A stretch of DNA of 64,000 nt, taken from NCBI RefSeq assembly GCF_010993735.1, contig NZ_WQNI01000018.1, positions 1 to 64,000 of the forward strand, read 5' to 3'. Positions 8,883 through 54,959 of this stretch are shown piece after piece; the stretch's first letter is position 1; the number at the start of each line of letters is the position of its first letter. Both the position numbers and the translations under genes were made by a program. The notes under the pieces were generated by a model. The model saw nothing but the letters and a program-made list of their open reading frames with translations, did not search any database and was not told where the DNA came from. This stretch comes from Chelativorans alearensis (GTDB lineage: Bacteria > Pseudomonadota > Alphaproteobacteria > Rhizobiales > Rhizobiaceae).

Positions 8883-8934
8883 CCCCTCTCTTGCAAGTTC
8901 CAAGGGCTTGGCTTCGCCAAATCCAAGAATTTGC
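8883..8934. repeat. TTGCAA-type palindromic repeat, family B copy 1
   Basis: The sequence reads CCCCTCTCTTGCAAG, a stem, TTCG-like loop, then CCAAATCCAAGAATTTGC. It matches the left arm and core of the near-perfect hairpin at 51472-51534, with a diverged right end. It lies in the hmuT-hmuU gap, between 8860 and the hmuU start. Confidence 0.75.
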
Positions 8935-50048: not shown

Positions 50049-50609
50049 ATGTTTGACTTGGGATGGCCTGAACTTCTTGTCATCGCGATCGTGCTGATCG
50101 TCGTCGTCGGGCCGAAGGATCTGCCCGGCGTCCTGCGCGGCTTCGGCCGCACGACGACCAAGCTGCGCGCGATGGCAGGCGACTTCCGCAAGCAGTTCGA
50201 TGAGGCGCTGCGGGAGGCCGAGCTCGAGGACGTGAAGGGCCTTGTCGACAATGCGCGAAAGCTCGACCCGCGCGGCGAGATCAAGAAGCATCTCAGCCCC
50301 CTCGAAAAGGCGGGGCGTGACGTCCGAAGCGGGCTTGACGAGGCGATGAAACCGAAGGCAACTCCGGCGGCTGCCGAGGCGAAGCCCGCCGTGCCGGCGA
50401 GCGAGAAGCCTGCACCCGCCGAGCCCACGGTGGCCAAGTCTACTGCGGCCAAGCCCGCCGCGGTCAAGCCCAAGACGGCGAAACGCACCGCCAAGCCTGC
50501 GACGAAAGCCACCGCGACGAAGAAGGCGCCGAGCGCCAAACCCACCGCCAGGCGGGCAGAGGCCAAGCCCGCCGCGCGCGGGAAGAAGACAACGGGAACC
50601 GCGTCGTGA
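50049..50609 (+). CDS. tatB: Sec-independent translocase subunit TatB
   Basis: 186 residues. The N-terminal MFDLGWPELLVIAIVLIVVV, with the conserved Glu in GWPELL, is the TatB signature. The amphipathic helix (GRTTTKLRAMAGDFRKQF) follows, and then a long Lys/Ala/Pro-rich tail from about residue 95. TatB and TatC bind twin-arginine signal peptides such as that of the CpdB-like protein. The stop overlaps tatC by four bases. Confidence 0.95.
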   Translation: MFDLGWPELLVIAIVLIVVVGPKDLPGVLRGFGRTTTKLRAMAGDFRKQFDEALREAELEDVKGLVDNARKLDPRGEIKKHLSPLEKAGRDVRSGLDEAMKPKATPAAAEAKPAVPASEKPAPAEPTVAKSTAAKPAAVKPKTAKRTAKPATKATATKKAPSAKPTARRAEAKPAARGKKTTGTAS

Positions 50610-51451
50610 GCGCCAAAGAAGACGACGATATCGATAAGTCATCAGCGCCGCTGATGGAGCACCTGATCGAGCTGCGCTCGCGTCTCATGTGGGCGATCGC
50701 CGCCTTCTTCGTCGCGTTTCTCGTCTGCTTCTTCTTCGCCAAGGGCATTTTCAACCTCCTGGTCATCCCCTTCCAGTGGGCGAGCGAGTGGGCGGGCCTC
50801 GATTCGCAGAAGGTCGACCTCATCTACACCGCGCCGCAGGAGTTCTTCTTCACGCAGATCAAGCTCGCCATGTTCGGCGGGCTGGTGCTGGCCTTCCCGG
50901 TGATCGCCATGCAGGTCTACAAGTTCGTGGCGCCGGGCCTCTACCGCAACGAAAGGCGGGCCTTCCTGCCCTTCCTCGTCGCCTCGCCCATCCTGTTCCT
51001 GATCGGCGGCAGCCTGGTCTATTTCTTCTTCATGCCCATGGTCATGTGGTTCTTCCTGTCCATGCAGCAGGTGGGGCCGGGCAACGAGGTGCAGATTTCG
51101 CTTTTGCCGCGCGTTTCCGAATATCTCGGCCTCATCATGACGCTGATCCTGTCCTTCGGCCTGGTCTTCCAGCTGCCCGTGGTCACGACGCTGATGGCGC
51201 GGGTGGGGCTCCTGACAGCGCAAGGCCTGGTCGACAAGCGCAAATACGCCATCGTCGCCGCCTTCGTGGTCGCCGCGGTGCTCACCCCGCCCGACCCGGT
51301 GAGCCAGATCGGTCTCGCGGTTCCCACCATCCTTCTCTACGAGATCGCCATCTGGAGCGCCCGGATGGTGGAGCGCAGACGCGAGAGGGAAGAGGCGGAA
51401 AAAGAGAAGGCCGAAGCCTCGGCCGAGGGCAAGGCCAACCCCGCCGAATAG
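50606..51451 (+). CDS. tatC: Sec-independent translocase subunit TatC
   Basis: 281 residues from GTG 50606. Six membrane helices are predicted. Conserved pieces include the first periplasmic-loop start PLMEHLIELRSRL, YTAPQEFFFTQIKL, RNERRAFLPFL and VVAAVLTPPDPVSQIGLAVP. It is the signal-peptide receptor of the Tat system. A charged C-terminal tail (EAEKEKAEASAEG) follows. Confidence 0.96.
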   Translation: MSAKEDDDIDKSSAPLMEHLIELRSRLMWAIAAFFVAFLVCFFFAKGIFNLLVIPFQWASEWAGLDSQKVDLIYTAPQEFFFTQIKLAMFGGLVLAFPVIAMQVYKFVAPGLYRNERRAFLPFLVASPILFLIGGSLVYFFFMPMVMWFFLSMQQVGPGNEVQISLLPRVSEYLGLIMTLILSFGLVFQLPVVTTLMARVGLLTAQGLVDKRKYAIVAAFVVAAVLTPPDPVSQIGLAVPTILLYEIAIWSARMVERRREREEAEKEKAEASAEGKANPAE

Positions 51452-51459
51452 AAGAGCGC

Positions 51460-51497
51460 GCTGGCGAGGCGCCCCTCTCTTGCAAATTCTAAGACTT
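51460..51497 (+). repeat. Direct repeat left of DUF559 gene
   Basis: This 38-bp sequence (GCTGGCGAGGCGCCCC then TCTCTTGCAAATTCTAAG) recurs at 51911-51949 with one extra C. The two copies flank the DUF559 gene, and their second halves are the left arms of the family B palindromes. Confidence 0.9.
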
Positions 51498-51534
51498 AGC
51501 CTTCGGCTAAATCTAAGAATTTGCAAGAGAGGGG
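51472..51534. repeat. TTGCAA-type palindromic repeat, family B copy 2
   Basis: The 30-base left arm beginning CCCCTCTCTTGCAAATT pairs with the right arm ending AATTTGCAAGAGAGGGG, with two mismatches and a TTC loop. It is the most complete of the four copies. It starts 20 bases after tatC and could act as its terminator or as an insertion scar. Confidence 0.9.
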
Positions 51535-51544
51535 GCCGACAACC

Positions 51545-51910
51545 GTGCCACGCCAGCCCATCCCACCACCCCACCGCACCTTCGCCCGCACCATGCGCGC
51601 CGACGCGACCAAGCCCGAAACCCTCCTCTGGCAAGCCCTCCGCAACAAGCAGCTCGAAGGCCTGAAGTTCAAGCGCCAGGTACCGCTTAACGGCACCATC
51701 CTCGATTTCGTCTGCTTCGAGGCGCGGCTGATCGTCGAGGTGGACGGTGGCCAGCATGCCGAATCCGCGCCGGATGCCGAACGCGACAGACGCTTCGAGG
51801 ACGAAGGCTTCAAGACCCTGCGCTTCTGGAACGACGAGGTAGCGAGGAACCTCGACGGCGTATGCCTGACGATCCTGCACGAGGCGCAGGGGCGGCTGGG
51901 CGACGGGTAG
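51545..51910 (+). CDS. DUF559 domain-containing protein (Vsr/endonuclease-like fold)
   Basis: 121 residues from GTG 51545; ATG 51593 is shorter, and TTG 51521 lies inside the repeat. It has the DUF559 pattern: FARTMRADATKPETLLWQAL, then GLKFKRQVPLNGTILDFVCF, VEVDGGQHAE and TLRFWNDEV. In Vsr-like nucleases the Asp in ILDF and the Glu and Gln of VEVDGGQH are expected catalytic residues. The protein is inferred to nick or cut DNA, but no substrate is known. It is between tatC and serS, flanked by direct repeats and palindromes, which suggests an inserted cassette. Confidence 0.8.
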   Translation: MPRQPIPPPHRTFARTMRADATKPETLLWQALRNKQLEGLKFKRQVPLNGTILDFVCFEARLIVEVDGGQHAESAPDAERDRRFEDEGFKTLRFWNDEVARNLDGVCLTILHEAQGRLGDG

Positions 51911-51949
51911 GCTGGCGAGGCGCCCCCTCTCTTGCAAATTCTAAGACTT
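51911..51949 (+). repeat. Direct repeat right of DUF559 gene
   Basis: A 39-bp copy of the sequence at 51460-51497 with one additional C in the C-run. It begins right after the DUF559 stop codon (TAG at 51908-51910). Confidence 0.9.
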
Positions 51950-52145
51950 GGCATTCGCTAAGCCCAAGAATTTGCTTTCTCCCCCACCAAGGGGGAGATA
52001 GGCGCGTTGCACGACCGCCTGTGCCAATCTCCGACGTTGGCGAGTGGCAAGAGCATCGGCGCCGCCGCTATCTCCCCCTTGGTGGGGGAGAAAGCGATTT
52101 CTTAGGTTTAGCGAAGCTAAGCCTTAGAAATCGCAAGAGAGGGGG
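51922..52145. repeat. 224-bp nested inverted repeat, family B copies 3 and 4
   Basis: Outer arms are CCCCCTCTCTTGC (from about 51924) and GCAAGAGAGGGGG (to about 52145). Inside each arm is a TTGCAA-type mini-palindrome. Inside these are perfect 28-bp arms (51974-52001, 52068-52095). The central loop is about 66 bases. Confidence 0.9.
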
Positions 52146-52359: not shown

Positions 52360-53220
52360 ATGGACGGAACTGCGGCAATCGAGCGGGATCGCGTGGCGCT
52401 GAAGCGCATCGTGGCTTCCCTCGTGGCCATGGCCGGGCTTGCCGTGGGGCCTCATCCCGAGGCGCGGGCCGAGGGCGAGCCGCCAAAGACCCTGCCCCGC
52501 CATCTCTGGCGCGCCATCCTCCGCCTGCTGCGCCCGACTGAGGCCGCCGCGCGGCGGCTGGTCATCGCCGCCGCACGCGGTCTCACCGTCTGTCTGCCGC
52601 CCCCGCGCAAACAGAGGCCCGCAAGCCCGGCGCCGCTCCTGCGCAGCCTCGGCATCGCCGTGATGGCCTCGCCCGCGGACCTCTCCGCCATAGCGCGCAG
52701 AGCGAGGGCGGAAGCCAGGCGCGCCGCCGCCCCCGCCCGTCCGCGAAGCGTGAGCCTGCCGCTCTTCGACCCGCTGCGGCTTTCTCTGAGCCCTGAGCTT
52801 GCCGAAGGGGGCCGCGGCCGCCATGGGCCCGCGCACGCCGTCCCGCGCATCCTGTTTCCCGGCCTCATCGAGCCGTCTCCCCTCCCGCGGCCGCCATCGC
52901 GCGACGATCCCGTCAGCGCCGCGCGTCTTGGCCAGCGGCTGGCGGCACTCGCCGCCGCCCTTGACGATCTGCCGGGGCAGGCCAGGCGCTTTGCCCGCTG
53001 GAAGGCGCGCCGCGATCTGGGGCTTACGCGCCGCACCGCACCGCTGCGCGGCGGCCGGCCGCCCGGCGGCCGGCTGTCCCGCTTCGACCCGTCCGACGTC
53101 CGCGACGCCGCAGGCGCGCGAGGACAAAAAGCACCCCGCAACGTCCGCGAGGTCGACGAGATCCTGGCGCACGCCCATTCGCTGGCCCTGTACGCGCTGG
53201 AGAGCCCCGATACCTCATGA
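52360..53220 (+). CDS. Hypothetical protein, Arg/Pro/Ala-rich
   Basis: 286 residues from ATG 52360, with GGAGG eight bases upstream. It has no signal peptide and one hydrophobic segment near residues 17-32 (IVASLVAMAGLAVGPHP), then LPRHLWRAILRLLRPTEAAARR, a basic Pro-rich middle and a C-terminus with RFARWKARRDLGL. Codon use looks normal for this chromosome. I do not recognise the family or function. It lies between the DUF559 cassette and serS on the same strand. Confidence 0.55.
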   Translation: MDGTAAIERDRVALKRIVASLVAMAGLAVGPHPEARAEGEPPKTLPRHLWRAILRLLRPTEAAARRLVIAAARGLTVCLPPPRKQRPASPAPLLRSLGIAVMASPADLSAIARRARAEARRAAAPARPRSVSLPLFDPLRLSLSPELAEGGRGRHGPAHAVPRILFPGLIEPSPLPRPPSRDDPVSAARLGQRLAALAAALDDLPGQARRFARWKARRDLGLTRRTAPLRGGRPPGGRLSRFDPSDVRDAAGARGQKAPRNVREVDEILAHAHSLALYALESPDTS

Positions 53221-53516: not shown

Positions 53517-54959
53517 ATGCTCGACATAAGATGGATTCGCGAGAACCCCGAAGCCCTCGTGCTCGCGCTCAAAAAGCGCGGTCAGGCGGAGGCCGAGGCG
53601 CGCTCTACGGTCGAGAAGGTGATCGCCGCCGACGAGGCCCGCCGCACGCACCTCACGAAGCTGCAGGAAGCCCAGGAACGCCGCAACGCCGCCTCCAAGG
53701 AGATCGGCAAGGCAATGGGCACGGGCGATCAGGCGCTGGCCGAGAAGCTGAAGGCCGAGGTGGCGGAGCTGAAAAGTTTCGTGCAGGACGGCGAGGCGAA
53801 GGAGCGCGAGCTTGACGCAAGCCTGCGCGATCAACTCGCCAGCATCCCCAACGTGCCGCTCGACGACGTGCCGGAGGGCGCGGACGAGAGCGACAATGTC
53901 GAAGTGCGCCGCGTCGGAGACCCGAAGCGCGCCAATTCCTCGAAGGAGCACTTCGAGCTAGGCGAAGCGCTGGGGATGATGGATTTCGAGCGCGCCGCGA
54001 AGCTCTCGGGGTCGCGTTTCACCATCCTTTCGGGTGGGCTCGCCCGCCTCGAACGCGCCCTCGGCCAGTTCATGCTCGACCTGCACACGACCGAACACGG
54101 CTACACGGAGGTGCAGCCGCCGCTTTTGGTGCGCGATGAGGCGATGTTTGGGACCGGGCAGTTACCGAAGTTTAAGGAAGATCTCTTTCCAACGCCTGCG
54201 GGCACGTGGCCGGAGAAATACCTATATGAGGCGATCAAGGGGACTCTCGATGCCTTTGACTCAGCACAGACAATTGATCTGGAGCGTGTGAAGCGAGCCA
54301 CGTCTAGTAGCTGGTCTCATGCGCTTCGTGATCTAAGGAACACAAGGCGCTGGATGATCCCCACCGCCGAAGTCCCCCTCACCAACCTCGTCCGCGAGGA
54401 AATCCTCGACGCCGAAAAACTCCCTCTCCGCTACACCGCGCTCACCCCCTGCTTCCGTTCCGAGGCCGGCTCGGCGGGCAAGGATACGCGCGGCATGCTG
54501 CGCCAGCATCAGTTCTACAAGGTGGAGCTTGTGTCGATCACCGACGCCGAATCCTCACTCCAGGAGCACGAGCGCATGACCGAATGCGCCGAGACGGTGC
54601 TGAAGAAGCTCGGCCTTCCCTTCCGCACCGTCGTCTTGTGCACCGGCGACATGGGCTTCGGCGCTCAGAAGACCTATGACATCGAAGTCTGGCTGCCCGG
54701 CCAGAACGCCTACCGCGAAATCTCCTCCTGCTCGGTCTGCGGCGATTTTCAAGCGCGCCGCATGAACGCGCGCTATCGTGCGGCCGGCGGGAAGCAGACG
54801 CAGTTCGTCCACACGCTTAACGGCTCGGGCGTGGCGACGGGCCGCGCCCTCATCGCCGTCATGGAAAATTACCAGAACGAGGACGGTAGCATTAGCATTC
54901 CTGAAATCCTCCAGCCCTATATGGGAGGGATGACACGGATCGAGGCTGTGAGAGGCTAG
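53517..54959 (+). CDS. serS: Seryl-tRNA synthetase with an extra insertion
   Basis: 480 residues from ATG 53517 ([14 protein letters not shown]); usual bacterial length is about 425-430. The N-terminal coiled-coil arm (about 30-105) and the class II motifs are present: [31 protein letters not shown] (motif 2) and [19 protein letters not shown] (motif 3). Between LPKFKEDLF and MIPTAEVP about 50 extra residues are inserted (about 225-278). DNA at about 54144-54350 is AT-richer and uses TTA, CTA, TCT, AGT and AGG codons rare elsewhere here. It probably remains functional, since all motifs are intact. Confidence 0.93.

Follow-up and report, generated by a model that had tools for sequence, protein, structure and literature searches.

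PIT elements were reportedly described by Hoyne et al. Under the names TM or TMECO, these intrastrand-triplex repeats are recorded in E. coli and in more than 260 genomes (Holder et al. 2015, PMC4666352, accessible part). The same accessible text links the 23 TMECO motifs of E. coli to genome instability and states that mobility genes were never found around TMECO sites (PMC4666352). Another described family of palindromes, the REPs associated with RAYTs, carries a GTAG tag (PMC3733652, accessible part). RAYTs are HUH Y1 transposases.

We analysed a DUF559 gene of Chelativorans alearensis, and the palindromes beside it, in a window of 64,000 nucleotides (the term denotes the whole stretch of DNA under analysis). 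Like the REP/RAYT systems (REPtrons, REPINs), the locus has one small gene of nuclease type with copies of a dispersed extragenic palindrome on both sides, and gene-less palindromes and inverted pairs are scattered over the genome. The two differ in the enzyme, which is HUH Y1 in RAYTs and would here be a mobilising protein of the PD-(D/E)XK type. They also differ in the repeats, since those of DUF559 are CTCCC-type sequences, often with a G-rich third tail, or are derived from them, whereas the REPs of RAYTs are GTAG-tagged (PMC3733652, accessible part). No match to PF01797 (HUH Y1 transposase) was found in the window's genome, and the window gene encodes none. Because the HUH transposase is absent, the DUF559 system is not a member of REP/RAYT; the comparison with REP-associated transposases made in the original prediction was apt in architecture, with an enzyme from another superfamily.

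Homing enzymes act at homologous sites, and in this respect I-Bth0305I (3r3p), a homing endonuclease of Vsr fold, differs from the DUF559 system, whose palindromes lie at unrelated sites. VsrA of Caulobacter and NGO0050 (PDB 3hrl) also share family or fold with the window protein, but the published account of VsrA presents it as a Vsr-like nuclease of mismatch repair, and its accessible part contains no word that begins with "palindrom" (PMC12907096). The palindromes considered here overlap the published TM/PIT repeats: the sequence CCCTCTCCC..GGGAGAGGG..GGGTGAGGG is identical in a number of DUF559-flanking palindromes, whereas the window's own element, with CTCCCCC/GGGGGAG arms, is a derivative lacking the simple third-strand G-rich tail. 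The overlap is with known repeats; their tie to DUF559 was not found in the open-access literature in PMC.

The DUF559 gene and its repeats between tatC and serS

The sequence GCTGGCGAGGCGCCCC(C)TCTCTTGCAAATTCTAAGACTT occurs at 51460–51497, left of the gene, and again at 51911–51949, right of it, both by direct reading and in an independent repeat search (Table 1). These are the 38-bp and 39-bp repeats, each leading into a hairpin, that had been noticed from the sequence at the outset. The right copy had also been said to start at the stop codon; it has one additional C and does adjoin the stop, but begins at the base following the TAG (51908–51910). The left copy runs on into a near-perfect palindrome of 63 bp, which folds as single-stranded DNA with an MFE of -27.6 kcal/mol (z -12.1; 0 of 200 shuffles equally stable). 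The right copy corresponds to the first hairpin in a larger, 223-bp inverted structure (-86.9 kcal/mol, z -14.6 in the same type of fold; 53-nt inner arms 89% complementary), in which an inverted pair of hairpins flanks an inner TTTCTCCCCC/GGGGGAGATA repeat. The gene lies between the single and the double palindrome, and the unit has no clean TIR pair. The direct repeat at the locus arises because two palindromes of the same family share their orientation, and both layouts occur elsewhere; the 451-bp stretch bounded by the direct repeat, initially taken as the mobile unit, is therefore not retained as such. The 12 bp GCTGGCGAGGCG common to the left and right sides lie outside the palindromes and are accounted for by none of the readings discussed below.

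Table 1. Features of the window at and around the DUF559 locus
Feature	Coordinates	Strand	Evidence
tatC, left neighbour	50606..51451	+	ORF list; single tatC match in each of 16 genus genomes
GCTGGCGAGGCG left copy, 12 bp outside palindrome	51460..51471	+	sequence read, repeat search
63-bp palindromic element, single-hairpin form	51472..51534	.	inverted repeat I2, 93% complementary; fold z -12.1; dispersed
DUF559 nuclease gene (predicted), 121 aa with the likely GTG start	51545..51910	+	PF04480 E 3.3e-36; start by homologue; AF2 model
GCTGGCGAGGCG right copy, immediately 3' of stop codon	51911..51922	+	sequence read, repeat search
223-bp compound palindromic (MITE-like) element, inner CTCCCCC/GGGGGAG inverted repeat	51923..52145	.	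sequence read, repeats, fold
Compound element, left hairpin	51934..51975	.	I8
Compound element, right hairpin	52094..52134	.	I6
Further hairpin copy within window	8883..8934	.	C10:8883-8934, genome search
Frame homologous to post-tatC frame of G015, 79% identity	52361..53220	+	ORF list, comparison
serS, right neighbour	53517..54959	+	ORF list, genus comparison

The window protein belongs to DUF559, with a PF04480 match above the curated cut-off; a sub-threshold match to PF18741 is the only other Pfam result. Its similarity to REase_MTES_1575 is below the cut-off of that family, as is that of YcjD. The reading frame is open from a TTG at 51521, inside the palindrome. Among the matches listed, the nearest relative (L052) reads MPRQPIPPPHRTF after a stop, and for this reason the GTG at 51545 is the likely start codon, which would place the palindrome upstream of the gene. 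The AF2 model matches 3hrl (NGO0050), I-Bth0305I (3r3p) and Vsr, with Hjc scoring lower. It points to a Vsr-type fold, in line with the nuclease that the original prediction had named, and the protein is predicted to be a small single-domain PD-(D/E)XK (Vsr-like) nuclease. Six residues (E25, D54, E65, D67, H71, D77) are invariant in an alignment of 36 sequences, made of the window protein and 35 others chosen from the 80 loci described in the next section, and are candidates for the active site. The DUF559 stretch of a MAG labelled Nitrospira (L076) has an internal stop codon and is possibly a decaying gene.

As had been suggested at the outset, we searched the tatC–serS junction in relatives: all 15 other genomes of the genus have the gap without the gene and without the palindromes. 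In 14 of them the gap spans 51–161 bp and contains neither a DUF559 match nor a palindrome of the CCCTC[AT]CTTGC type. The nearest genome (G015, TatC 96% identical) has a homologue of the 52361–53220 frame after tatC, and its gap holds other inserts too; its 3.8-kb locus gave no DUF559 match and no palindrome of that type. The idea of a cassette between tatC and serS thus stands for the gene and its palindromes, but the gap in the window also contains the 52361–53220 frame. We regard this frame as part of the same insertion-prone gap and not necessarily of the cassette. Together with the region upstream of it (CTGTCAGGAATGTTTTCCTAT...), it is a repeated unit, which recurs beside palindromes at C4:176804 (L010, where the frame is visible) and partly at C32:281250 (L016). 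A different inverted element, GTCATCCCGG/GTCATTCCGG...CCGGGATGACG, lies in G015 after tatC (L133) and at the site of a dispersed copy discussed below (L213). It is reminiscent of REPs of the CGTC type, reportedly without a transposase of their own (PMC3733652, accessible part).

The closest DUF559 relatives among the matches listed are 64–81% identical to the window protein and lie elsewhere in genome context; loci L031–L065 have no tatC, tatB or serS within the flanks examined. Close relatives of the window gene sit between palindromes at these other sites. Certain DUF559 sites are common to several species, so movement would be occasional and not frequent.

Linkage of DUF559 genes and palindromes across genomes

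DUF559 genes are linked to palindromes at the scale of the locus, the two co-occur across genomes, and both are present in the window at a site that is empty in relatives. At the first of these scales, we used the best 80 of 479 confirmed relatives by similarity to the window protein (14 close, 66 distant), and a class-wide sample of 30 loci drawn by Pfam score. In the 80 loci, pyrimidine/purine (Y/R) palindromes occur in 49 of the 62 intergenic segments beside DUF559 versus 8 of the 144 others (odds ratio 64, p 9e-27). In the 250 bp flanking the gene on each side, these best 80 of 479 relatives have CTCCCC-type palindromes at 4.0 and 4.5 per kb; at distances over 500 bp the density is 0–0.4 per kb. 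All 14 of the 14 close loci have a Y/R palindrome on one side or both, as do 59 of the 66 distant and 26 of the 30 class-sample loci, with both sides occupied in 7, 36 and 12, respectively; the corresponding control windows have one in 4/164, 16/779 and 1/118 cases. Labels of the distant loci include Bradyrhizobium, Nitrobacter, Nitrospira, Chloroflexi, Scalindua, Actinomycetota, Spirochaetota, Azospirillum, Luteimonas and others, and may err, since many of these loci are from MAGs. Plasmid-borne DUF559 genes have Y/R palindromes on both sides in Deinococcus and upstream in Azospirillum; the one in Picosynechococcus has a CCCCCAA/TTGGGGG palindrome downstream. The pairing of DUF559 with hairpins, which was to be sought in other genomes, is therefore far wider than the window locus.

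The palindromes are arranged around the gene in both inverted and direct layouts, the clearest cases being perfect inverted pairs that resemble TIRs. Over 148 loci, inverted repeats outscore direct ones in 74 and score lower in 59 (p 0.22); scores of at least 25 are reached by inverted repeats in 40 loci and by direct repeats in 36. The tails of the palindromes point inward in 39 cases and outward in 16, with 139 having none (p 0.003 on the assumption of independent palindromes, which they are not). Five paralogues opened in G027 show at least three palindrome variants, and four of them have a matched palindrome on each side. The palindrome beside the gene in G075 is unlike the dispersed palindromes listed for that genome, and an opened DUF559 gene of G210 has no palindrome. 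The layout returns as a strong variant at a DUF559 locus of G087 (L197), where CCCCCTTT...AAAGGGGG palindromes lie within an inverted repeat scoring 52.

Some of the DUF559 loci recall insertion sequences and their MITEs in the inverted terminal sequences around the gene, in gene-less copies with similar ends, and in empty sites. The difference is in the target-site duplication, of which none was evident by eye in L228–L231 or in the flank loci inspected. Filled and empty sites formed no pair close enough to give exact ends, and neither a transposition event nor an exact element end was found in the loci compared. We know of no IS that uses a PD-(D/E)XK enzyme of the DUF559 type alone.

At the scale of whole genomes, we searched 289 genomes of the class for DUF559. 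Matches of E 1e-10 or better were found in 71, including the window's genome, and none in 196; the 22 with weaker matches (E 1e-10 to 1e-3) were left out of the 2x2 table. Palindromes were counted with the pattern CCTCYCCCN{2,12}GGGRGAGG, and the backward pattern served as control. At least three copies are present in 63/71 gene-bearing versus 21/196 gene-less genomes (odds ratio about 66, p 1e-33), and in 4/22 of those with weak matches; the median number of copies is 17 with the gene and 0 in each of the other two groups. The backward pattern occurs 0–3 times almost everywhere, the exceptions being G071 (68) and G184 (9). Of the 27 families that include both gene-bearing and gene-less genomes, 21 have more copies in the gene-bearing ones, 4 have fewer and 2 the same; for the 13 such genera the numbers are 10, 2 and 1. 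The association is present in all four genome-size bands. The Y1 transposase (PF01797), taken as a control, is not associated with the palindromes (19/58 vs 69/231).

Eight of the 71 gene-bearing genomes have fewer than three copies of the pattern. We opened five of them. In all five, variant Y/R palindromes lie near the gene: G087 and G184 have them on both sides, and G104, G160 and G283 on one. Conversely, 15 of the 196 gene-less genomes carry at least five copies, and even at an E of up to 10 none of these 15 shows DUF559 above the cut-off. Absence of the gene may be overstated in these counts: the genome search gave no PF04480 match in the E. coli control, though ycjD of MG1655 scores 167 bits, so either the control strain lacks the gene or the first search was incomplete. 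Hairpins of the window type without a full DUF559 gene, which the original prediction had thought would speak against the coupling, do occur, with 32 pattern matches in G011 and 7 in G007. G007 keeps a truncated DUF559 stretch, and G011 has no DUF559 above the family cut-off at E up to 10; we read these hairpins as orphans.

Dispersed and gene-less copies in the window's genome

The window palindrome is dispersed in its genome. Merging of 27 two-strand matches gave, as a lower bound, some 14 hairpins distributed over about 9 places. Paired hairpins occur at four other places (C1, C32 and twice in C33), one of the partners having an E of 0.2. A second DUF559 gene of this genome, at C33:107235-107555 (L047), is bounded by a perfect 40-bp inverted repeat, TTCCCCTCCCCCTTGAGGGGAGGGGTTAGGGGTGGGGGTA. 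Its palindromes differ from that of the window gene and carry GGGGAGGGGTTAGGGGTGGGG, with two arms and a third G-rich repeat, which is the form of TM/PIT. The pattern CCCTCCCCN{2,8}GGGGAGGG, which fits them, has 82 sites (0 for the backward control) and is also found in G015 (111), G007 (32) and G011 (3).

Gene-less copies have ends like those of this gene-bearing one. We took 19 copies from the listed pattern sites for comparison with the second gene. Three of them, picked for their spacing (L229, L230 and L231), have short spacers without a gene and ends oriented as in the second gene, and are thus MITE-like; their two ends match the 40-mer at 27+36, 37+37 and 36+37 of 40 positions, respectively. 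The other 16 are mostly head-to-head pairs with their tails outward. Many of the head-to-head pairs in L232–L247 lie within a longer repeat with the outer sequence TGAGTCCTTG... / GGCTTCGCC..., a second-level mosaic.

One gap with a dispersed copy could be compared between genomes of the genus. At this orthologous gap, G000 has the 63-bp palindrome and G007 a compound one. The spacer is 5–7 bp in G003, G005, G008, G011 and G012, 46 bp in G009 and 74 bp in G010, and G015, G006, G001, G004 and G014 carry other sequence of 40–191 bp; the palindrome arm motif is absent from these loci other than G000 and G007. The search for the site gave no match in G002 and G013. Judging from this comparison of G000, G007 and the spacers at a single gap, the 63-bp form resembles a compound form reduced to its two outer halves, with the middle missing.

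DUF559 as a candidate mobiliser of palindromic repeats

We think it rather likely that the DUF559 gene and the adjoining palindromes are two halves of one genetic system, in which the nuclease acts at the palindrome and drives its dispersal. By analogy with REP/RAYT, DUF559 would probably be the cognate, mobilising nuclease of the palindromes, with a Vsr-like enzyme in the place of the HUH transposase. What we infer is direct recognition of the palindrome, as an extruded or single-stranded hairpin or as duplex, followed by a cut or nick at the palindrome that would drive dispersal. Host repair or replication would then insert a copy elsewhere. A palindrome-bounded gene and gene-less copies (single hairpins, paired hairpins and MITE-like inverted pairs) would in this manner spread through intergenic DNA; one such unit would have been placed in the tatC–serS gap of the window, and loss of the gene would leave palindromes behind as orphans.

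The main rival explanation is that DUF559 is a structure-specific or repair nuclease (Vsr- or Hjc-like) that serves the host and is retained where palindromes abound, while another enzyme spreads them and the flanking copies act as operator or terminator. The modelled fold, near Vsr and with a lower match to Hjc, would agree with such a role. So would the proposal that VsrA of Caulobacter, a DUF559 protein, is a mismatch-repair nuclease (PMC12907096, accessible part) and the view that the CCCTCTCCC palindromes of Enterobacter 638 are probable terminators (PMC2869309, accessible part). We nevertheless consider it unlikely: the close relatives of the window gene are found between palindromes at sites other than tatC–serS, the ends of gene-less copies resemble those of the second gene-bearing unit, and the Y1 transposase, the sole other mobile family compared, lacks the association.

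It is improbable that DUF559 is a mere passenger, i.e., a dispensable gene in gaps that tolerate insertions and accumulate palindromes through some unrelated mobiliser. Palindromes are in few of the other gaps of the same loci (8/144 vs 49/62 beside DUF559), their presence across genomes follows the gene (odds ratio about 66), and four of the five opened G027 paralogues have their own matched pair, even if the tatC–serS gap does tolerate insertions, as indicated by the other inserts in G015. The gene could also encode a toxin, a restriction enzyme or a selfish killer, with the palindromes as protective or regulatory sites and no transposition. We find this very improbable, because gene-less dispersed copies and empty sites fit mobility better and the neighbours of the window gene in the ORF list, tatC and the 52361–53220 frame, do not suggest a partner gene; the predicted PD-(D/E)XK nuclease fold and the sub-cut-off similarity of the window protein and YcjD to REase_MTES_1575 are the points in its favour.

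The pairing of nuclease and palindrome across very distant bacteria suggests that DUF559 is the missing partner that spreads common orphan repeats. We give roughly even chances to the broader proposal that DUF559 represents a widespread undescribed class of mobile elements, consisting of a lone PD-(D/E)XK nuclease gene between palindromic, often potentially triplex-forming ends, and is the missing mobiliser of the TM/PIT repeats. Were this true, repeats treated so far as orphan structural motifs would have DUF559 as their mobiliser. Intergenic DNA of bacteria often contains CCCTCTCCC-type palindromes, and a cognate gene family makes their abundance a testable genetic question. It also gives nucleases of an uncharacterised family a possible function, and suggests that palindrome-spreading systems can be driven by a second enzyme fold in addition to the HUH transposases of REP/RAYT.

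The gene and the published motifs can be seen side by side in E. coli. YcjD of MG1655 is a DUF559 protein (167 bits) and shares 42% identity with the window protein across 108 positions. The stop codon of ycjD overlaps a degenerate CCCTCTCCC palindrome, and TMECO no. 9 (1351204–1351239) lies 167 bp downstream of the gene, a position on which the published listing and the sequence record concur. The motif near ycjD has two palindromic arms and a third G-rich repeat. By our own arithmetic, with 23 motifs in 4.64 Mb, a given gene would have a motif no farther than 200 bp away by chance in about 0.2% of cases. The ycjD region is present in 3362 of 5426 E. coli genomes; in strains ATCC 25922 and TUM13066 (L179, L180), ycjD and the triplex motif are absent upstream of fabI, and TetR and RND-efflux genes are found there instead.
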